21,432 nt of DNA from a virus. Both the position numbers and the translations under genes were made by a program. Every line of letters begins with the position of its first letter. Position 1 is the stretch's first letter. The stretch is from positions 1-21,432 of IMG/VR virus record IMGVR_UViG_3300010883_027071; one strand, written 5' to 3'. Below the pieces are notes generated by a model. That model worked only from the letters and a program-made list of their open reading frames with translations. It did not search any database and had not been told where the DNA came from. Below, one piece after another: positions 11,397 through 21,254 of the stretch.

Positions 11397-11425
11397 TTGA
11401 AAATTGCTTTTTATCATGTTATATT
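11397..11425 (+). promoter_or_regulatory. Probable sigma70-like promoter for the polymerase unit
   Basis: A -35 TTGAAA (11397-11402), a 17-base spacer and a -10 TATATT (11420-11425) fill the 52-base gap between the hub-like gene and the polymerase gene. Transcription would begin close to the ATG at 11431, so the mRNA would be almost leaderless. TTGCTT occurs three times in the vicinity (11387, 11393, 11404). Confidence 0.6.
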
Positions 11426-11430
11426 AAAGC

Positions 11431-12618
11431 ATGAAGATCGCCATTCCGCAAAGTCGATTTCTTCGGCAGTTATCTTTAGTCAACCACAAGAATACTTTTA
11501 GCTGGAGAGATCACCCTGAAAAAGACGCTTATATCTTGGGAGATGATTACCACCCCAGGTCTATGACACCAGTTTTCGAGCTGCTTGGAAGTAAAAACTT
11601 CCCTCTTATTCCTGCAGAAGTTCAAGTAGCTTTTTCTTCGCTGGGCGTGGGCAAAGAGAATCTCCCCATTGATGGCGTTCAATCTGATATTAGCATGATT
11701 GCATGCGTTGAGGCAGCATTTAAGCATGCTCATGAGTCACTGAGTGAACTCCAAATGACCGGCTATTTAGATACCTTTATGGAATGCAACAGGACCCTCA
11801 GAAGGCTCCAGAGGGCCCGCATTGATATTAATTCACTTAAGCGTGGAATTGAATCTAAAGAAATTAAAAATGTTTCAGTTGCAAAGGGATTTTTCCCTCA
11901 AAAAGATGGATTTCTATCTCTTTCAGAATATAGCACCACTCGTACATTGACGGGTAGAACGACTATCGTCCGAGGACCTCAGATTTTAACAGCTCCTAAG
12001 CTTATTCGAAAATATCTAACTTCATCTTATCAAGGTGGAAAAATAGCTCAAGTAGATTTTGTATCGCTGGAGCCTCGAGTCGCGATGCAGCTTACTGCAG
12101 ATACTTTGGGACCAGATGTTTATGAATACTTGGCTGAAAAACTTTTTGTTCAGAAAGTTTCTCGGGCAGTTGTTAAGAAATTGGTGCTCTGTGCTGTTTA
12201 TGGAGCTTCAGAATCCACTCTCAAGAAGGGATTACCTGATGGAATTAATATTCAGCAGCTAGTAGAAAAAACCAAAGAGATTTTAAACTACGAGCTTGTA
12301 GTTAATGAGCAATCTAACAATTTTCAAAAAAATGGCACAATTCAAAATTTTTTCGGCCGAATAGTAGAACCGCAACACGCGCGCGATTCTTTATTATATA
12401 ACAACTACATTCAGTCGACAGCAGTTGATGTTGCGCTCTTGGGTTTCGGAAAAATCTTAGATAGAGCTTCAACTCGCGTACGACCAATTTTCTTTATCCA
12501 TGACGCCATGTTAGTCGACCTTCACCCAGACGACATAGAAGAGTTTAAAAAAGTTTCTTCTAGCATAGTTATTGATGGGTTAGGCGAATTTCTGCTTGAT
12601 TTCCAGCTCTTAGGGTGA
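11431..12618 (+). CDS. polA: Minimal family A (PolA-type) DNA polymerase, no exonuclease domain
   Basis: This is a 395-aa DNA polymerase. Motif A is DFVSLEPR with catalytic Asp209 and Glu214. Motif B has Arg245, Lys249 and Tyr257 (SRAVVKKLVLCAVYG). Motif C is IHDAM with His357 and Asp358. TGRTTIVRGPQ before motif A matches the TGR..NLQ region, and YNNYIQSTAVDV matches the QG(S/T)AAD helix. The position of E. coli Phe762 is Leu253. About 208 residues precede motif A, close to the E. coli Klenow polymerase domain alone (about 187), so the 3'-5' exonuclease is missing rather than truncated away. The motif A to B and B to C gaps are shorter than in E. coli, so fingers are reduced. No ribosome site precedes the ATG, and the nearest in-frame Met is at codon ~45, so this start is kept. 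It opens a unit with four small genes. Likely the main or accessory phage replicative polymerase. Confidence 0.9.
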   Translation: MKIAIPQSRFLRQLSLVNHKNTFSWRDHPEKDAYILGDDYHPRSMTPVFELLGSKNFPLIPAEVQVAFSSLGVGKENLPIDGVQSDISMIACVEAAFKHAHESLSELQMTGYLDTFMECNRTLRRLQRARIDINSLKRGIESKEIKNVSVAKGFFPQKDGFLSLSEYSTTRTLTGRTTIVRGPQILTAPKLIRKYLTSSYQGGKIAQVDFVSLEPRVAMQLTADTLGPDVYEYLAEKLFVQKVSRAVVKKLVLCAVYGASESTLKKGLPDGINIQQLVEKTKEILNYELVVNEQSNNFQKNGTIQNFFGRIVEPQHARDSLLYNNYIQSTAVDVALLGFGKILDRASTRVRPIFFIHDAMLVDLHPDDIEEFKKVSSSIVIDGLGEFLLDFQLLG

Positions 12619-12643: not shown

Positions 12644-13150
12644 ATGAACGCAGAAGAATATATTAGAAGTCATATTAGAAAAATTCTTTTAGAGCAAGAG
12701 GAAAAAACTACCTCTTCTAAAAAGAAAAAGAAGGCTAAAAAAGTTAAGTCTGTCGGTGTCGGCAGCGGAAGATTCAGCTTTAGTATATCTGAGGCTGGAG
12801 CATTAGCTAAAGAAGATCCAGGACAGCTAATGAGCAATCTTAAAGTGGGATCTGCTGATAAAAATAAAACCCAGCTTGAAATGTTGAAAAAACTTCTCGA
12901 AGATGCCGCTTCTGGTACAGATGAAATGAGCGAAGTTTTTACTGTTCCTTCTAAGCAGCCAACGGCTAAAGACAAAGATGGAAACGAAGTAGAATCTGTA
13001 GCAATAAAAGTGTCTGTTATACCCATACGCAATGCTCAAAAGTATATTGAACACACTCTCATGGGAGCAACAAACGCTTTTGGAATCAAGTGGAGTAAAA
13101 ATGTTGAAGTCACTAAATCGGGTGACAACGTAGTGGTTTATTTAAAATGA
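12644..13150 (+). CDS. Unknown protein with N-terminal amphipathic helix and lysine-rich patch
   Basis: This is a 168-aa protein with ATG start and a GGTGTGAG ribosome site, 25 bases after the polymerase stop. The N-terminus (MNAEEYIRSHIRKILLEQ) is an amphipathic helix of the kind seen at the start of several T4-like phage virion or scaffold proteins, where it is thought to be a packaging or assembly signal. It is followed by SSKKKKKAKKVK, then a folded-looking region with a helical core and beta-rich end (VAIKVSVIPIRN, VEVTKSGDNVVVYLK). There is no signal peptide or membrane segment and no recognised family. Its stop overlaps the next start (ATGA), so the two are translationally coupled. Confidence 0.72.
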   Translation: MNAEEYIRSHIRKILLEQEEKTTSSKKKKKAKKVKSVGVGSGRFSFSISEAGALAKEDPGQLMSNLKVGSADKNKTQLEMLKKLLEDAASGTDEMSEVFTVPSKQPTAKDKDGNEVESVAIKVSVIPIRNAQKYIEHTLMGATNAFGIKWSKNVEVTKSGDNVVVYLK

Positions 13151-14191: not shown

Positions 14192-14220
14192 TTGAACATT
14201 TAGTTAGCGGTTGATATTAT
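14192..14220 (+). promoter_or_regulatory. Probable sigma70-like promoter for the gp32-like gene
   Basis: A -35 TTGAAC (14192-14197), a 17-base spacer and a -10 TATTAT (14215-14220) lie in the 106-base gap ahead of the single-strand binding protein gene. A leader of about 65 bases would follow. The promoter shares TGAACAT with the recA gap. The gap is AT-rich, so other -10-like sequences (TATATT at 14241) exist without a matching -35. Confidence 0.5.
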
Positions 14221-14280
14221 TATTATATAGCTTACTTGGCTATATTACTAAGAAATTAGATTTTGCACATTTAAACATTT

Positions 14281-14285
14281 GGAGG
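14281..14285 (+). promoter_or_regulatory. Ribosome binding site fixing the gp32-like start
   Basis: GGAGG sits 6 bases before ATG 14292. The frame is open further upstream to a TTG at 14211, but that start overlaps the promoter and has no ribosome site, and the downstream protein starts in the typical way. Confidence 0.85.
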
Positions 14286-14291
14286 TTAAAA

Positions 14292-15122
14292 ATGGCACTT
14301 GATCTTAACGCAATTCGAGCAAAACTGAATAAACTCTCGGGCAACAACAGCCGGCGAGACTCACTTTGGCGTCCCCAAGAGGGTGAAGAGCACGTAGTAC
14401 GAATCGTTGCTTTTCCCGATAACGATGGCCAGCCCTTTAAGGAGCGCTGGTTCTACTATAACATTGGAAACAATCCTGGCTTGCTAGCTCCGCATCAGTT
14501 TGGCAGTCCCGATCCAATTCAAGAGCTTATCAATGAGCTTCGCTCTGACGGAAATAAAGAGAGCTATGAATTGGCTAAGAAGCTTTATCCTAAGATGAGA
14601 GCTTATGCTGCGGTTGTTGTTCGAGGAGAAGAAGAAAAGGGAATTCGCCTTTGGTCTTTTGGGAAGATGGTATACCAGTCACTTCTTAATATCATGCTAG
14701 ATGAAGATTATGGAGATATCACTGATCTTACTACTGGTCGAGATATCAAGGTTGTTTGTACCAAGCCACCAGGCAGAATGTATGCAGTCACCGATGTTCG
14801 GCCTCGTGGAAAGTCAACCGCGCTCGCAGAAAGTCAAAAGACTGCAAAGGCTTGGATCGATAATATTCCTAATCTAGATGACATTTACTCATGTAAGTCT
14901 TATGATGAACTGGGGAAGATAGTCAACGCTTGGATTGGCGGTGGTGAAGATGCGGGAGATGATGGAACTAGTCGTTCTTCTAAGACTCCGACTCCACCCG
15001 CCGCTACGCCCACGCCAACCGCTACTTCTACAGATTCTGCAGCAGATGATACAGCAGATGATGCAGCAAAGAAGTACTCGAGTTTGGATGATGCTTTTGC
15101 TGATCTAGAAGACGATTTTTAA
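14292..15122 (+). CDS. gp32: Single-stranded DNA binding protein, T4 gp32-like, lacking zinc cysteines
   Basis: This is a 276-aa protein that coats single-stranded DNA in replication and recombination and helps load the RecA and helicase proteins. The N-terminus (MALDLNAIRAKLNKLSG) is a basic cooperative-binding region. Residues ~24-170 form the OB-fold core, with RWFYYN, RIVAFPDND and a KMVYQSLLNIML helix that correspond to the T4 fold. T4 gp32 has a zinc knuckle (one His, three Cys including CPVC); here the equivalent stretch reads NPGLLAPHQFGSPDP and has no Cys. The only cysteines are 156 and 201. A Thr/Pro/Ala linker (~230-250) leads to an acidic C-terminal tail (YSSLDDAFADLEDDF), the usual site for partner proteins. 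It has its own promoter and terminator. T4 gp32 is translationally self-regulated, but I saw no clear operator here. Confidence 0.88.
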   Translation: MALDLNAIRAKLNKLSGNNSRRDSLWRPQEGEEHVVRIVAFPDNDGQPFKERWFYYNIGNNPGLLAPHQFGSPDPIQELINELRSDGNKESYELAKKLYPKMRAYAAVVVRGEEEKGIRLWSFGKMVYQSLLNIMLDEDYGDITDLTTGRDIKVVCTKPPGRMYAVTDVRPRGKSTALAESQKTAKAWIDNIPNLDDIYSCKSYDELGKIVNAWIGGGEDAGDDGTSRSSKTPTPPAATPTPTATSTDSAADDTADDAAKKYSSLDDAFADLEDDF

Positions 15123-15155: not shown

Positions 15156-15199
15156 GGGCGCCGACGCTATTCTTAGGAATGCATTCGGCGCCCTTTTTT
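15156..15199 (+). terminator. Intrinsic (rho-independent) terminator
   Basis: GGGCGCCGA (15156-15164) pairs perfectly with TCGGCGCCC (15185-15193), a 9-bp GC-rich stem, followed at once by six T (15194-15199). The 20-base interior can pair further (ATTC with GAAT around TTAG, and GC with GC). It ends the gp32-like transcript and separates it from the recA unit. Confidence 0.92.
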
Positions 15200-15209
15200 G
15201 TGTTTAGTC

Positions 15210-15238
15210 ATGAACATGTCTACAAAATAGTTTATAGT
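15210..15238 (+). promoter_or_regulatory. Possible promoter for the recA-exonuclease-helicase-nrdJ-iscU unit
   Basis: ATGAAC (15210-15215), a 17-base spacer and TATAGT (15233-15238) lie just after the terminator and before recA. The -35 matches consensus at three of six bases, so it is weaker than the other two, but it has the same spacing and shares TGAACAT with the gp32 promoter. A terminator followed by a long operon requires a promoter here. Confidence 0.45.
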
Positions 15239-15245
15239 TCAGCAT

Positions 15246-15250
15246 GGAGG
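15246..15250 (+). promoter_or_regulatory. Ribosome binding site fixing the recA start
   Basis: GGAGG is 6 bases before ATG 15257. The open frame extends upstream to 15179, inside the terminator stem, so those upstream codons are not used. Confidence 0.85.
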
Positions 15251-15256
15251 CCTTAT

Positions 15257-16441
15257 ATGGCAAAACAAAATCCAAGTGGCGACGATTTTACCGCTGATTT
15301 AATCAAATCTCTTAATAAAGAACATGGTTCTAGAGTTGCATATAACCTCGAAACTGATGAATCACCCACTCATGTAAAGCGCTGGATTGGAACTGGGTCT
15401 CAGCAGCTAGACTATATTTGTTCAAACCGTCGTGACGGCGGGCTGCCAGAAGGCCGTATCGTTGAGATTTTTGGACCTCCATCTATTGGAAAATCCCATA
15501 TTGCGATTCAAATTGCTAGAACTACCCAAGGCATGGGTGGAATTGTTGTTTATATCGATACTGAAAATGCTACTAGTGTAGAAAACTTACAGTTACTCGG
15601 AGTTAATATTTCTAAGCGTTTTGTATATGTTGATACTCACTGCACTGAAGAAGTGCTGTCTATTGCTGAGTCGACAATTATGAAAGCTAGAGCAATGGAT
15701 AAAGATGTTCCCATTACAATTATTTGGGATTCGGTGGCAGCTTCTTCTCCAAAGGCTGAACTCAATGGAACTTATGAACAGAACTCTATCGGGCTTCAAG
15801 CGAGAGCAATTTCAAAAGGAATGAGAAAAATTACCGGAGTGATTGGTGAGAGCAACACACTTTTTGTAATTTTAAATCAAACTAGAACTAAAATTGGAGT
15901 GATGTTTGGAGATCCAACAACTACCCCTGGGGGGAAAGCAATTCCATTCCATGCATCTGTTAGAATTAAGCTTGGAGCTGGCCAGCATATTAAGAACAAA
16001 GACAAAGAAGTTATCGGTATCCACGTCTCGGCGAAGACAATCAAAAATAAAGTGGCAGCCCCATTTCGATCTTGTAATTTTGAGATTCATTTTGGCAAGG
16101 GAGTCTATGAGCATGAACAAGTATTTGATTTACTTAGAAAGCATGGCCCTGTAGTAATTAATGACTCACGAGAAATTGAAATTTCTGGAACTGGAGCATG
16201 GAAGAAGCTTACTGTGGTTAACACTACTACTGGCGAACAGCTGATAGAAAAGAAATTTTATAAAGCAGATTTTAATGATGTTTGGCGTGATCCAGAGTTT
16301 AAATCCTATGTTGATGATCTACTTGAAGCTGCTATGATAAAGAAAATCGAAAGTTCAGATTTAGATCTAGATATAGAATCTTATGAAGAAGTCCGTGCAC
16401 TGGCAATGGAAATGGAACTAGATACAGGCGTGGAGGACTAG
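15257..16441 (+). CDS. recA: RecA-type recombinase (phage UvsX equivalent)
   Basis: This is a 394-aa ATPase that forms filaments on single-stranded DNA and catalyses strand exchange in recombination-dependent replication and repair. Walker A is GPPSIGKS at 73-80; YIDTEN near 103 carries the catalytic Glu; Walker B ends in IIWDS with Asp158. The stretch NQTRTKIGVMFGDPTTTPGG matches bacterial RecA ([20 protein letters not shown], from memory) and covers the L2 DNA-binding region. It resembles bacterial RecA more than T4 UvsX. The N-terminal region and the acidic, longer C-terminal tail differ from E. coli RecA (352 aa). Its TAG stop directly abuts the TTG start of the exonuclease gene, so translation is coupled. 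Confidence 0.9.
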   Translation: MAKQNPSGDDFTADLIKSLNKEHGSRVAYNLETDESPTHVKRWIGTGSQQLDYICSNRRDGGLPEGRIVEIFGPPSIGKSHIAIQIARTTQGMGGIVVYIDTENATSVENLQLLGVNISKRFVYVDTHCTEEVLSIAESTIMKARAMDKDVPITIIWDSVAASSPKAELNGTYEQNSIGLQARAISKGMRKITGVIGESNTLFVILNQTRTKIGVMFGDPTTTPGGKAIPFHASVRIKLGAGQHIKNKDKEVIGIHVSAKTIKNKVAAPFRSCNFEIHFGKGVYEHEQVFDLLRKHGPVVINDSREIEISGTGAWKKLTVVNTTTGEQLIEKKFYKADFNDVWRDPEFKSYVDDLLEAAMIKKIESSDLDLDIESYEEVRALAMEMELDTGVED

Positions 16442-17395
16442 TTGTCTTCAAACATCATATTGATCGATGCCCTTAATTTTTTTATGCGGCATTTCGCAGC
16501 CAACCCAAGTGTCAGCGATAACGGCCTCCACATCGGTGGTTCCGTCGGATTTCTTAAGGGAGTCCAACTTTTAATAGATAATTTTCATCCTGAAAAACTT
16601 TATGTTATTTGGGAGGGCGGCGGTTCGGCCCGTCGACGTAGCATATATAAAGGATATAAGTCTGGTAGACGACCAGTAAAGCTGAACCGATTTTATGAAG
16701 CAGATATTCCTGACACTGTTGGCAATAGGAATTATCAAATTAACTTGACAACTAAATTGCTAGGACTTTCTGGGATCCCCCAATTATATGTTTCAGATTG
16801 TGAAGCAGATGATGTGATTGGATATCTTTCTAAAAATAAACTTAAAAATGAAAATCTGATAATTGTCTCTTCAGACAAAGATTATTACCAGCTTTTAGAA
16901 AAAAATCGCGTAAAAATTTGGTCTCCTGGCCAGAAGAAAATATTAACCACAGAATCAGTTAGGGAAAGATTTGGAATACCTGCAGAAAATTTTTGTGTGG
17001 CTAGATGCTTTTGTGGAGATGGTTCTGATGGTCTGCCAGGGATAAAAGGTGCTGGTTTCCGCACCCTAAGTAAACGCTTTCCAGAACTAACAAAAGAAGA
17101 ATTTGTTAGCGTGGAAGAGATAATTAATATAAGCCGAAAACGATCCGAAGAATCTAAAGTGAAATTATATCATCAGGTTGTAGCTGATAGTGAAATACCG
17201 ACTATGAATTGGAAGCTCATGAATCTAGACGCAGTAAATTTATCCCCATATCAGGTTGAAAAAATTAACTATAAAATTGATACACCAGATAGAAAGATGA
17301 ATAAAATTAATTTCATGAGAATTTTAATAAGAGAAGGCGTCAAAGTTTTTGACGCAGACAAATTTTTTATGACCGCAAGATCAATTTTTAATTAA
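16442..17395 (+). CDS. 5'-3' exonuclease, FEN/T4 RNase H family
   Basis: This is a 317-aa structure-specific nuclease, expected to remove RNA primers and flaps on the lagging strand. Conserved metal-binding sites are all present: Asp9 (IILIDALN), the arch region RRRSIYKGYKSGR (66-76), DCEADD at 119-124, SSDKD at 143-147, and the helix-hairpin-helix GDGSDGLPGIKGAG at 192-205. The start is TTG, rare but well supported: GGAGG at 16432-16436 is 5 bases upstream, the recA stop immediately precedes it, and the protein begins in the family way. It lies between recA and the helicase gene. Because the polymerase lacks its own 5' nuclease, this enzyme may be needed for Okazaki-fragment processing. Confidence 0.9.
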   Translation: MSSNIILIDALNFFMRHFAANPSVSDNGLHIGGSVGFLKGVQLLIDNFHPEKLYVIWEGGGSARRRSIYKGYKSGRRPVKLNRFYEADIPDTVGNRNYQINLTTKLLGLSGIPQLYVSDCEADDVIGYLSKNKLKNENLIIVSSDKDYYQLLEKNRVKIWSPGQKKILTTESVRERFGIPAENFCVARCFCGDGSDGLPGIKGAGFRTLSKRFPELTKEEFVSVEEIINISRKRSEESKVKLYHQVVADSEIPTMNWKLMNLDAVNLSPYQVEKINYKIDTPDRKMNKINFMRILIREGVKVFDADKFFMTARSIFN

Positions 17396-17406
17396 GGGAG
17401 AGATAC

Positions 17407-18816
17407 ATGGCAGAAGTAGCTTACGACTATGAGCTCGCGCCCAAACCAGGACAAGCTTGGTTTGGGCAGTATGGAAAGCATTTTCAAGAGAAGATTTTTC
17501 AAGCTTTAATTTCAGATAATAGGTTTGCAGCCCAAATGGTAGAAGTTATGCATCCCGATTTCTTTGAAGTAAAGTACTTGCAGTATTTATGCGAGAAATA
17601 TTTTTCTTATCAAATAAAATATCGATCTTTTCCAAGCTTAAAGCTCTTGGTTTCTATCGTAAGAGATGATTTAGTAGACGATTCTACTCTTCTTCTTCGT
17701 GAACAAGTTGTAGAATTTTTGCACAGGCTCAAGTCTAATCCAGACCTCGGAGATCAAAATTATGTTAAAGAAAAGTCTTTAGATTTTTGTCGAACTCAGG
17801 CTTTTAAAGAAGCACTAGAGCAATCTGTTGAATTAATAGCAACTGAAAAATTTGAGTCAGTTTTAGGGCTTATGAAATCTGCAGTTTCGATGGGAATGGC
17901 AAATACTACTGGGCATGATTTCTTTGGCGACATGGATGCTCGCTTTAAAAAGTCTAGCCGCGTTGTAGTGCCGACTGGAATTCCCCGCCTTGATGCCCAC
18001 GATATTTTTCGCGGTGGCCTTGGAAAGGGAGAGATTGGAGTTATTACAGCTAATACTGGCGTCGGGAAATCTCACTGGCTAGTCCAAATGGGCGCAAACG
18101 CTATGCTTTCTGGTCGAAACGTGGTGCACTATACTTTTGAACTTTCAGAAGAGAACGTGGGAATTAGATATGATTCTTATTTGACAAATATTCCTAGCAA
18201 CGAAATAGTCGGTAGGAAAAAAGAAGTAAAAGAATTTTATAAAGATGGAAAGAAAATGGGCCGTCTTTTTATCAAAGAATATCCCACTGGATCTGCTAGC
18301 ATCGTAACGCTAAGGAACCACCTCGATAAATTACTTTTAAAAGACTTTAAGCCTCATGTAATCATTGTGGATTATGCAGATATTATGAGATCAACGAGAT
18401 CTTTTGATTCTTTGAGACATGAATTAAAACTCGTGTATGAAGAATTGAGAAATATGGCGATGGAAATGAATATTCCTATATGGACGGCATCTCAAGCAAA
18501 TCGCGATTCAGCAAATTCTGATATTGTTGGCTTGGAGAATATGGCAGAAGCATATGCAAAAGCTATGGTAGCAGATGTCGTTGTTTCTATATCAAGAAAA
18601 TCTACGGAAAAGGCTGGCGGAACTGGGAGGCTTTATATTGCTAAAAATAGAGCTGGAAGAGATGGGCTTTTGTTTCCAATTTCAATCGACACTGCGTGTT
18701 CGAAATTTAGTATCTTGGACGAGGACCACCTCACCCTCAATGAAGCGCTCCACGAAGATGAAAATGATATGAAATCTAAGCTAAGAGAAAAGTGGAAAGA
18801 TGTAAGGGGATTGTAA
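17407..18816 (+). CDS. dnaB: Replicative DNA helicase, DnaB/T4 gp41 type
   Basis: This is a 469-aa hexameric helicase that unwinds the fork 5' to 3' on the lagging strand. The N-terminal ~110 residues look like the DnaB N-domain helices (FQEKIFQALISDNRFAAQM, HPDFFEVKYLQYL). Walker A is ANTGVGKS at 215-222 with Lys221; Walker B is IIVDYAD with Asp322; SQANRDSA matches the DnaB SQ.NR motif; KNRAGRDG near the end fits the arginine-finger region. Ribosome site GGGAG lies 8 bases ahead of the ATG. No primase gene is visible, so primase is expected elsewhere. The last codon shares TAATG with the nrdJ start. Confidence 0.9.
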   Translation: MAEVAYDYELAPKPGQAWFGQYGKHFQEKIFQALISDNRFAAQMVEVMHPDFFEVKYLQYLCEKYFSYQIKYRSFPSLKLLVSIVRDDLVDDSTLLLREQVVEFLHRLKSNPDLGDQNYVKEKSLDFCRTQAFKEALEQSVELIATEKFESVLGLMKSAVSMGMANTTGHDFFGDMDARFKKSSRVVVPTGIPRLDAHDIFRGGLGKGEIGVITANTGVGKSHWLVQMGANAMLSGRNVVHYTFELSEENVGIRYDSYLTNIPSNEIVGRKKEVKEFYKDGKKMGRLFIKEYPTGSASIVTLRNHLDKLLLKDFKPHVIIVDYADIMRSTRSFDSLRHELKLVYEELRNMAMEMNIPIWTASQANRDSANSDIVGLENMAEAYAKAMVADVVVSISRKSTEKAGGTGRLYIAKNRAGRDGLLFPISIDTACSKFSILDEDHLTLNEALHEDENDMKSKLREKWKDVRGL

Positions 18817-21254
18817 TGGCTATGACTTGGTCGTATGATGAAGTTTTAAAAGAGACGCAAGATTATTTTAACGGTGATGATTTGGCTGCGTCCGCCGTTG
18901 TGGGAAAATACTTGCTTAAGGATCGAGACAACAACTTTATAGAAAAAACTCCAGACGATCTGCACCGTAGATTAGCAGCTGAATTCGCTAGAATTGAAAA
19001 TAAATTTGAAAAAAATGCGATGTCAGAAGAAGAAATATATTCTCTTTTGAAAAATTTTGACTATGTGATACCCCAGGGTTCTCCCATGTATGGGATAGGC
19101 AACAATTACGCAGTAGTTAGTCTGTCTAATTGCGTTGTCGTAGATTCTCCATCTGATGATGTAAGTTCTATTATGAACCAGGGAAAGGATTTAGCTAATC
19201 TTTTTAAAAGAAGATGCGGCGTTGGCATCGATATTTCCACCCTTCGACCAGATGGAACCTCAGTTTCTAATAGCGCTGGAAGTACTACTGGAGCTTGGAG
19301 TTTTGCAGATTTTTATAGCTACATATGTCGGATGATTGGCCAGAATGGTCGACGTGGTGCGCTTATGATTACTCTTGACATTCGTCATCCAGACATTGAA
19401 AAATTCATTACAATGAAGCACGATCTTTCCAAAGTGACTGGAGCAAATGTTTCTGTAAAAATAAACGATGATTTCATGCGAGCTGTTGAAAATAAACAAT
19501 CGTTTAAGTTGCAGTTTCCTGTAGAGTCTAATAACCCAACAGTTGTTAAAGAAATAGATGCTGAAGCACTTTGGAGTCTCATTATTGAAAGCGCAACTGC
19601 CACTGCAGAGCCGGGTCTTATGATGTGGGATACTATTCTTCGAGAATTACCAGCGCATGAATATGCAGATGTTGGATTTAATACTACGACTACCAATCCA
19701 TGCGGAGAAATCCCGCTTAGCCCTTATGATTCATGCAGGCTTATTGCCATTAATCTGGTAAATTTTGTAAGTGATCCATATACCAAAAATTCTAAATTTG
19801 ATTTAGAAAGATTTAAGAATACAGTTTCCAGCTCCATGCGTCTCAGCGATGATTTAGTTGAGCTTGAAATTGAAAAGCTTTATACGATTCTGGAAAAAGT
19901 GGACACTGAAGACGAAAAGATTCTTTGGACTAAACTTTTAGATGCTTGCGCCACTGGTCGGAGAACAGGCTTAGGAACCCTCGGCCTCGCAGATACTCTC
20001 TGCAGACTTGGAGTTAAATATGGCTCTAAAAAGTCTGTTGAAATAGTTGATAAAATTTATGATGCTTTCAAGTGCGCAGCATATCAAGAAAGCGTAAATT
20101 TAGCAAAAGAGCGCGGCCCATTCCATGCATTTAACTGGGAGAAAGAAAAGAACAACGCTTTCATCTGCAGATTACCCCATGATTTAAAAAAAGAGATGGC
20201 TACTGTCGGCAGACGCAATATTTCTATTCTTACTAATGCTCCTACAGGTACGTGCTCTATCGCAGCGCAAACATCAAGCGGGATAGAGCCTATTTTTAGG
20301 CTTGGTTACACGAGAAGAAAAAAGATAAATTACAGTGATTCCGAAGCAAGAGTTGATTTTATCGACGATCTTGGAGATAAGTGGCAAGAATTTGAGGTGT
20401 ATCACCATGAAATTAAAAATTATTGGGCAATTCGTGGAAAAAGTGAAATTGAAGATTTGCCAAAATATTTTATAACTTCAGACCAGATAGACTGGAACGG
20501 TAGAATCAATGTCCAAGCTGCGATTCAACGGCACGTGGACCATTCAATAAGCTCCACTATTAATTTGCCAAAAGGGACGAAGCCAGAGGTAGTAGGCCAG
20601 CTCTATATGGACGCTTGGCGAGCTGGATTGAAAGGGGTTACTATTTATGTCGATGGTTCTCGCTCTGGAGTTTTAGTAACTAAAGATAAGAAATCAAATA
20701 ACGGCGATGCTGCCCAACACGCTCAGAAACGACCGGAGATTTTAGATTGTGAAATCTATCAAACTACTATAAAGGGAGAAGGTTGGACAATCTTGGTGGG
20801 AGTAATCGATAATGTCGCTTATGAAGTTTTTGGAGGTCTTTCTGAATATGTAGAAATTCCAAAAAGGTATACTCAAGGCAAAATTCAAAAGCGCCCCAGA
20901 AAGTCAATGGCTAATAAGTATGATTTAATCGTTGGTGGCGATGGCGAAGAATTTGTGATCAAGGACATAGTCAAAGTTTTTGACAACCCTAACCACACAT
21001 CTTTTACAAGGACAATTTCTTTAGCGCTTCGGCATAAAGTTCCACTGCAGTTTTTAGTAGAGCAGCTTCAGAAAGACAAAGATGCTGATTTATTCTCTTT
21101 TTCTAAAGTGGTGGCCAGATGTTTGAAAAAGCATATTGAAGATGGCACTAAAGTCAGCAATGGCATTTTAAACTGCTCTTGCGATTCTCCAGACATTGTT
21201 TATCAAGAAGGTTGTGCGACTTGTTTAAACTGCGGACATGCAAAATGCGGGTAA
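18816..21254 (+). CDS. nrdJ: Class II (adenosylcobalamin-dependent) ribonucleotide reductase
   Basis: This is an 812-aa enzyme that reduces ribonucleotides to deoxyribonucleotides with a B12-derived radical. The start is the ATG in TAATG, overlapping the helicase stop, with AAGGGGA at 18804-18810; an ATG two codons later is possible. Motifs: SLSNC with Cys106; NPCGE with Asn294, Cys296 (radical cysteine) and Glu298; PYDSC with Cys307; NAPTGTCSIAAQTSSGIEP. The 11-residue gap between Cys296 and Cys307 equals that in Thermotoga NrdJ. The C-terminus has the NrdJ-type domain (ILDCEIYQTTIKGEGWTI) and a redox/zinc-like tail, CATCLNCGHAKCG, preceded by CSC where the family usually has CxxCG. No N-terminal ATP cone is seen, so overall-activity control may be absent. 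It implies a host that makes or imports cobalamin. Class I (NrdA) is excluded by the single-chain form and these motifs. Confidence 0.93.
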   Translation: MAMTWSYDEVLKETQDYFNGDDLAASAVVGKYLLKDRDNNFIEKTPDDLHRRLAAEFARIENKFEKNAMSEEEIYSLLKNFDYVIPQGSPMYGIGNNYAVVSLSNCVVVDSPSDDVSSIMNQGKDLANLFKRRCGVGIDISTLRPDGTSVSNSAGSTTGAWSFADFYSYICRMIGQNGRRGALMITLDIRHPDIEKFITMKHDLSKVTGANVSVKINDDFMRAVENKQSFKLQFPVESNNPTVVKEIDAEALWSLIIESATATAEPGLMMWDTILRELPAHEYADVGFNTTTTNPCGEIPLSPYDSCRLIAINLVNFVSDPYTKNSKFDLERFKNTVSSSMRLSDDLVELEIEKLYTILEKVDTEDEKILWTKLLDACATGRRTGLGTLGLADTLCRLGVKYGSKKSVEIVDKIYDAFKCAAYQESVNLAKERGPFHAFNWEKEKNNAFICRLPHDLKKEMATVGRRNISILTNAPTGTCSIAAQTSSGIEPIFRLGYTRRKKINYSDSEARVDFIDDLGDKWQEFEVYHHEIKNYWAIRGKSEIEDLPKYFITSDQIDWNGRINVQAAIQRHVDHSISSTINLPKGTKPEVVGQLYMDAWRAGLKGVTIYVDGSRSGVLVTKDKKSNNGDAAQHAQKRPEILDCEIYQTTIKGEGWTILVGVIDNVAYEVFGGLSEYVEIPKRYTQGKIQKRPRKSMANKYDLIVGGDGEEFVIKDIVKVFDNPNHTSFTRTISLALRHKVPLQFLVEQLQKDKDADLFSFSKVVARCLKKHIEDGTKVSNGILNCSCDSPDIVYQEGCATCLNCGHAKCG

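Follow-up and report, generated by a model that had tools for sequence, protein, structure and literature searches.

The window analysed here, a stretch of 21,432 nucleotides that comes from an uncultured, probably marine phage, encodes a small DNA polymerase ahead of a block of replication genes. The question raised by this locus is whether such a short enzyme copies the phage genome at the fork or works beside another replicase. The polymerase and the parts recognised in it are as follows.

11431..12618, + strand: exonuclease-less, thumb-reduced family A DNA polymerase, 395 aa
11425..11427, + strand: in-frame TAA, one codon before the ATG of the polymerase
11431..11784, + strand: N-terminal module, residues 1-118, possibly vestigial exonuclease-like, without conserved acidic residues
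11785..11928, + strand: reduced thumb region, residues 119-166, with 35 aa from ID (131-132) to Y167
11950..11958, + strand: TGR motif, residues 174-176 (Klenow 666-668), R176 being R668
12052..12078, + strand: motif A, VDFVSLEPR, with D209 at Klenow D705 and E214 at E710
12163..12204, + strand: motif B, RAVVKKLVLCAVYG, with L253 (12187-12189) at Klenow F762
12499..12519, + strand: motif C, HDAMLVD, with D358 at D882 and A359 at E883

First, the identity of the protein was examined. The Pfam family DNA_pol_A covered residues 167-378 of the 395-aa chain (E 7.3e-9, just above the cut-off), and PHROG 17 (DNA polymerase) covered residues 167-374 (E 8.4e-20). When the protein was aligned with E. 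coli Pol I and T7 gp5, D209, R245, K249, and L253 corresponded to D705, R754, K758, and F762; in the same alignment, Y257, Q328, H357, and D358 corresponded to Y766, Q849, H881, and D882 of Klenow. An earlier note on this DNA had read motifs A, B, and C in the protein and had placed Leu253 at the E. coli 762 position, and the alignment bore out both. Motif C reads HDA, not HDE. The structure model (pLDDT 93.3) contained the palm and fingers fold and matched the Taq, Bst, T7, and Klenow chains with Z values of 21-23, at 13-17% identity in the structural alignment with Klenow and Taq. Judged from the catalytic aspartates, the R, K, and Y of the O-helix, and the palm and fingers fold, the window protein is a family A DNA polymerase.

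The protein had also been described as a bare polymerase chain without a linked 3'-5' exonuclease. Indeed, no exonuclease family matched it. The stop-to-stop frame opens at 11428, and a longer N-terminal start is excluded because the TAA at 11425-11427 lies in frame; an upstream start adding an exonuclease was ruled out on the same ground, in keeping with the earlier observation that no far-upstream in-frame start is present. The further claim that the chain begins where the polymerase domain of Klenow begins did not hold. Profile comparison recognised only residues 158-378, beginning at Klenow 651, and a module of about 118 aa lies before the recognisable part.

We then considered this N-terminal module. 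Residues 1-118 modelled alone gave a pLDDT of 93.5. In alignments of the whole-polymerase model, the match began at residue 350 of Klenow, 304 of Taq, and 1 of T7, which indicates that the module occupies the place of the exonuclease domain. When the module alone was compared using VIA-align, the top row was the inactive exonuclease region of Taq (304-432), a weak match with a Z of 3.0, 83 aligned residues, and an rmsd of 3.9. Foldseek with the module alone returned nothing significant, and a sequence search with the N-terminal profile returned no match (best E 0.34). Among 30 homologues, the module had no invariant residue, Y112 alone being nearly invariant. The N-terminus of the homologue in Microcystis phage Mel-JY01 (PP395634) was also searched for a hidden exonuclease at the sequence level without a match, and the exonuclease domains PF01612 and PF00929 matched nowhere in the 21.4-kb window. 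A vestigial exonuclease is plausible; an active exonuclease in the module is not supported. A hidden exonuclease in the N-terminus was rejected on the profile and Foldseek results and on the VIA-align Z of 3.0 to an inactive region.

Comparison of the thumb with that of Klenow, as the earlier note had proposed, pointed to a reduced thumb, both by sequence spacing and by predicted secondary structure. The ID motif at 131-132 corresponds to Klenow 547-548 and Y167 to Klenow 659; the spacing between them is 35 aa, compared with 111 aa for E. coli Pol I, or about 76 thumb residues fewer. The predicted model showed just two short helices in this region, and the same stretch ranged from 10 to 40 aa in the alignment of 35 homologues. 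In the distant Mel-JY01 homologue, IERN is followed almost directly by YNWFTLTSR, which backs the alignment of the ID motif. Spacing and model thus suggest that the window polymerase has lost most of its thumb, for which the N-terminal helices might substitute. Such a reduction is the loss of a subdomain with the family A signature kept; a full thumb is usual in the family and does not define it.

Subsequently, the surroundings of the gene were examined. The genes that follow it in the window, with the 168-aa frame described below left aside, are listed here.

14211..15122, + strand: gp32-like single-strand DNA binding protein, its true start probably near 14292 (Pfam gp32 2.7e-9, PHROG 1192)
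15179..16441, + strand: UvsX/RecA-like recombinase, likely real start about 15257
16442..17395, + strand: stand-alone FEN-type 5'-3' nuclease, corresponding to the N-terminal domain of Pol I (Pfam 5_3_exonuc_N 1.6e-28)
17407..18816, + strand: gp41/DnaB-type ring helicase (Pfam DnaB_C 2.1e-21, PHROG 19)
18792..21254, + strand: ribonucleotide reductase (RNR) large chain; the window ends 178 bases further on

A profile search over 80 helicase-bearing loci, polymerase-bearing loci, and Mel-JY01 gave 39 matches, namely the window, the same Mel-JY01 gene twice, and 36 uncultured homologues. The polymerase gene (polA) was found in 31 of the 33 loci with more than 6.5 kb ahead of the helicase; the contigs of the remaining two (L092 and L094) begin about 1-1.6 kb before gp32, and their polA slot is accordingly not covered. 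The order tail gene, polA, gp32, UvsX, FEN, helicase, and RNR recurred in nearly every spanning contig, and exactly one PolA, in frames of 397-413 aa, was present in each of 14 contigs tested. The equivalents of R668, D705, R754, K758, Y766, Q849, H881, and D882 were invariant in 35 homologues that are mostly just 21-36% identical to the window polymerase, indicating that polymerase activity is under selection. Position 762 was Leu in 27 and Ile in 8 of the 35 aligned rows, and the position of E883 was Ala in 32. The idea that Ala at this position is unique was rejected; Ser stands there in HMO-2011, CRP-207, Twort, and P100. In a tree with nine reference sequences, the family and Mel-JY01 grouped together (99/99), nearest to the PolA of BFK20, which has Leu at 762 by its motif B; the tree left the family root unresolved, and the Mel-JY01 branch was very long.

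Two further observations concern the family and its locus. The divergent contigs L100 and L069 grouped loosely with Mel-JY01 and had the shortest thumb stretches (10 aa). A 168-aa gene directly after polA (12644-13150 in the window), for which no significant Pfam or PHROG match was obtained, recurs after polA in many loci with 27-74% identity.

Whether the protein is the main fork enzyme, as the earlier note had asked, depends on what other polymerases these phages encode. Within 21.4 kb, PolA is the sole polymerase visible, and the window, a fragment, ends before the place where relatives carry dnaE. Of 17 uncultured contigs examined as a first set, 11 encode DnaE (DNA polymerase III alpha), among them each of the 8 that measure at least 84 kb; a second set of 12 shorter contigs yielded no DnaE (11/29 in total). 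All 11 DnaE proteins had intact PDIDxD and K(F/Y)D catalytic motifs, and dnaE followed polA downstream at a distance of 14.3-30.9 kb on the same strand, one of these distances assuming circular permutation. The closest relative with dnaE is G001 (184.9 kb), whose PolA is 64% identical to that of the window; its 1209-aa DnaE, the one scanned with Pfam, contained PHP, pol3_alpha, finger, and HHH domains. Most contigs without DnaE end before its expected position. In the divergent 32.9-kb contig L100, which extends about 31 kb after polA, neither DnaE nor a family B polymerase was found, and no family B polymerase was found in the 17 first-set and 12 further uncultured contigs. Mel-JY01 carries a family B polymerase and clamp-loader genes in place of DnaE. 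Hence another replicase elsewhere, the kind of finding that the earlier note had named as refuting, is encoded in every relative contig of at least 84 kb (DnaE) and in Mel-JY01 (family B), and PolA is probably not the main fork enzyme.

A separate exonuclease had been suggested as something to look for, and the result was divided: a DnaQ-like exonuclease gene is present in four relatives (G001, G004, G005, and G007), and the window has no PF00929 match. The acidic motifs expected of such an enzyme (DVETTG, NASFD, and a late HxAxxD) were present in the two DnaQ-like sequences examined, and in G007 (L035) the gene lies two genes after polA.

Some genes of G001 outside the polA block were also recorded. 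Two unusual phage metabolic genes adjoin each other in L009, an ATP-type phosphoenolpyruvate carboxykinase at 23004-24458 (PF01293, 1e-153) and an S-adenosylhomocysteine hydrolase at 21698-23032 (PF05221, 8e-125). In L011, a GroEL-type chaperonin (59956-61530) adjoins a second FEN-type 5'-3' nuclease (61728-62558) beyond the FEN of the replication block. Near the DnaQ-like exonuclease, a PF00291 pyridoxal-phosphate-dependent enzyme, of the cysteine synthase type by its look, is encoded at 2606-3466 of L007.

Based on these results, we consider it likely, with a probability of roughly 0.65, that the window polymerase is an accessory family A enzyme rather than the fork replicase, and that it would fill gaps while a phage DnaE encoded past the 3' end of the window would act as the main replicase. 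From Klenow thumb mutants, a family A polymerase with a small thumb would be expected to grip DNA weakly and to act over short stretches. The window enzyme retains every catalytic residue in its palm and fingers, whereas proofreading and, it seems, most of the thumb are gone; it should thus add nucleotides over short stretches only. Its most likely job would be filling the gaps left after the nearby FEN nuclease removes Okazaki primers; gaps arising from UvsX/gp32 recombination would be an alternative substrate. A weak, short-range hold on DNA would suit either kind of gap. In E. coli, copying at the fork falls to Pol III, and primer removal and gap filling fall to Pol I, a single chain that unites FEN, proofreading, and polymerase activities (PMC12926913). 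These phages seem to divide the work in the same way, with Pol I broken up into individual genes: the polymerase, the FEN nuclease, and, in some relatives, the DnaQ-like exonuclease.

Other roles were weighed against the accessory gap-filling one. The bare PolA could itself be the principal polymerase at the fork, partnered by the gp41-type helicase and the gp32-like protein as in T7 or T4, with the DnaE of the relatives being accessory. The place of polA in the gp32-UvsX-FEN-helicase block in nearly every spanning locus, the invariant catalytic residues, and the lack of any other visible polymerase in the window speak for such a role. However, the intact DnaE in all 8 large contigs, the reduced thumb, and a chain without proofreading speak against it. 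In addition, Leu at the 762 position cut the polymerase activity of T7 by 97% and left the phage unable to complete its cycle (PMC13228545), although other backgrounds may compensate. We regard a main-fork role as improbable. A catalytically dead remnant that serves the replisome structurally would account for the reduced thumb and exonuclease and for the loss of E883, but neither the two catalytic aspartates nor the dNTP-binding residues vary in homologues as distant as those described above, which makes a remnant very improbable indeed.

A specialised polymerase for repair or lesion bypass, serving recombination-dependent replication or damage tolerance and not Okazaki maturation, is unlikely but deserves somewhat more attention. 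The gene lies near gp32 and UvsX, its product has no proofreading, and the best solved sequence by profile was human Pol nu (E 2.2e-15). Pol nu is a low-fidelity family A enzyme. However, the profile scores of Pol nu and Bacillus Pol I were almost equal, and the top rank of Pol nu therefore says little. The bacterial PolA2, with an inactive exonuclease, has likewise been termed low-fidelity (PMC12926913). Against a lesion-bypass role, the block also contains a stand-alone FEN, and general gap filling covers both kinds of work.

Among known systems, E. coli Klenow and the Taq large fragment have TGR, Q849, motifs A to C, and the fold of palm and fingers in common with the window polymerase, which lacks an active exonuclease, has a thumb shorter by about 76 aa, and carries Leu at 762 and Ala at 883. 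A likeness in a named phage is the 408-aa protein of Mel-JY01, which occupies the same slot before the gp32, RecA, FEN, and gp41 genes. As in the window family, no exonuclease is recognised in it, the thumb is nearly gone, and Ala follows the aspartate of motif C (YDA); it is 26% identical to the G001 PolA over 195 aa and has Phe at 762. The two also differ in the accompanying replicase, family B with a clamp loader in Mel-JY01 and DnaE in the relatives described here. In PP395634, this PolA-like gene (50397-51623) is annotated as "hypothetical protein", and the FEN (55792-56832) as "DNA polymerase I". Rhodothermus phage RM378, a Far-T4 relative, has a short polymerase frame (532 aa) with other polymerase-related genes annotated separately; it was rejected as a precedent for a split family A enzyme, its polymerase matching family B. 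Actinobacterial PolA2/APEX resembles the proposed role as an accessory family A enzyme with a vestigial exonuclease beside DnaE replicases, but it is cellular and has a clamp-binding motif in the vestigial domain, and the likeness is one of description only (PMC12926913).

Phage Pol III alpha, Far-T4 polymerases, and phage PolA with Ser at 883 are already known. Far-T4 phages with DNA polymerases have been published (PMC4360716), and the accessible part of a report on the marine jumbo phage cluster PGC_A gives Pol III alpha (PF07733) in half of the members, as in the relatives here, and describes no companion PolA (PMC9123017). PolA was present in none of five cultured DnaE phages sampled, a small sample. 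A literature search of limited journal coverage found no phage with both family A and family C enzymes, and the literature searched held no description of a conserved, nearly thumbless phage PolA beside a phage DnaE.

PolA and its 762 residue serve surveys of ocean viruses as a marker of replication speed and lifestyle, and the earlier note had cited virioplankton studies of PolA as tying Leu to slower, possibly less aggressive replication. In a virioplankton survey, Leu762 groups went with SF1/SF2 helicases (UvrD/RecB/SNF2) and without RNR (Nasko et al. 2018; PMC6302109). The window polymerase shares Leu at 762 (L253) with those groups, whereas a DnaB_C ring helicase and RNR lie near polA here and likewise in nearly all loci, in contrast to the non-ring helicases and missing RNR of the groups surveyed. 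Carrying the slow or temperate reading over to this phage is thus unsupported, and no lifestyle follows from either the virioplankton pattern or the T7 result when the polymerase is probably an accessory one. Given the other replicase in the relatives, the residue would tell little of the speed of genome copying, and caution is warranted in inferring phage lifestyle from a small PolA.

More tentatively, and with rather less confidence than for the window itself, widespread uncultured phages may combine a phage DnaE replicase with a three-part Pol I consisting of a nearly thumbless polymerase, a stand-alone FEN, and, in some, a stand-alone DnaQ. If this is true, the chain with hardly any thumb would represent a minimal form of family A polymerase that is uncharacterised so far. 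The family offers a natural test of which parts of a family A enzyme can be lost with catalysis kept, here proofreading, most of the thumb, and the usual glutamate of motif C.
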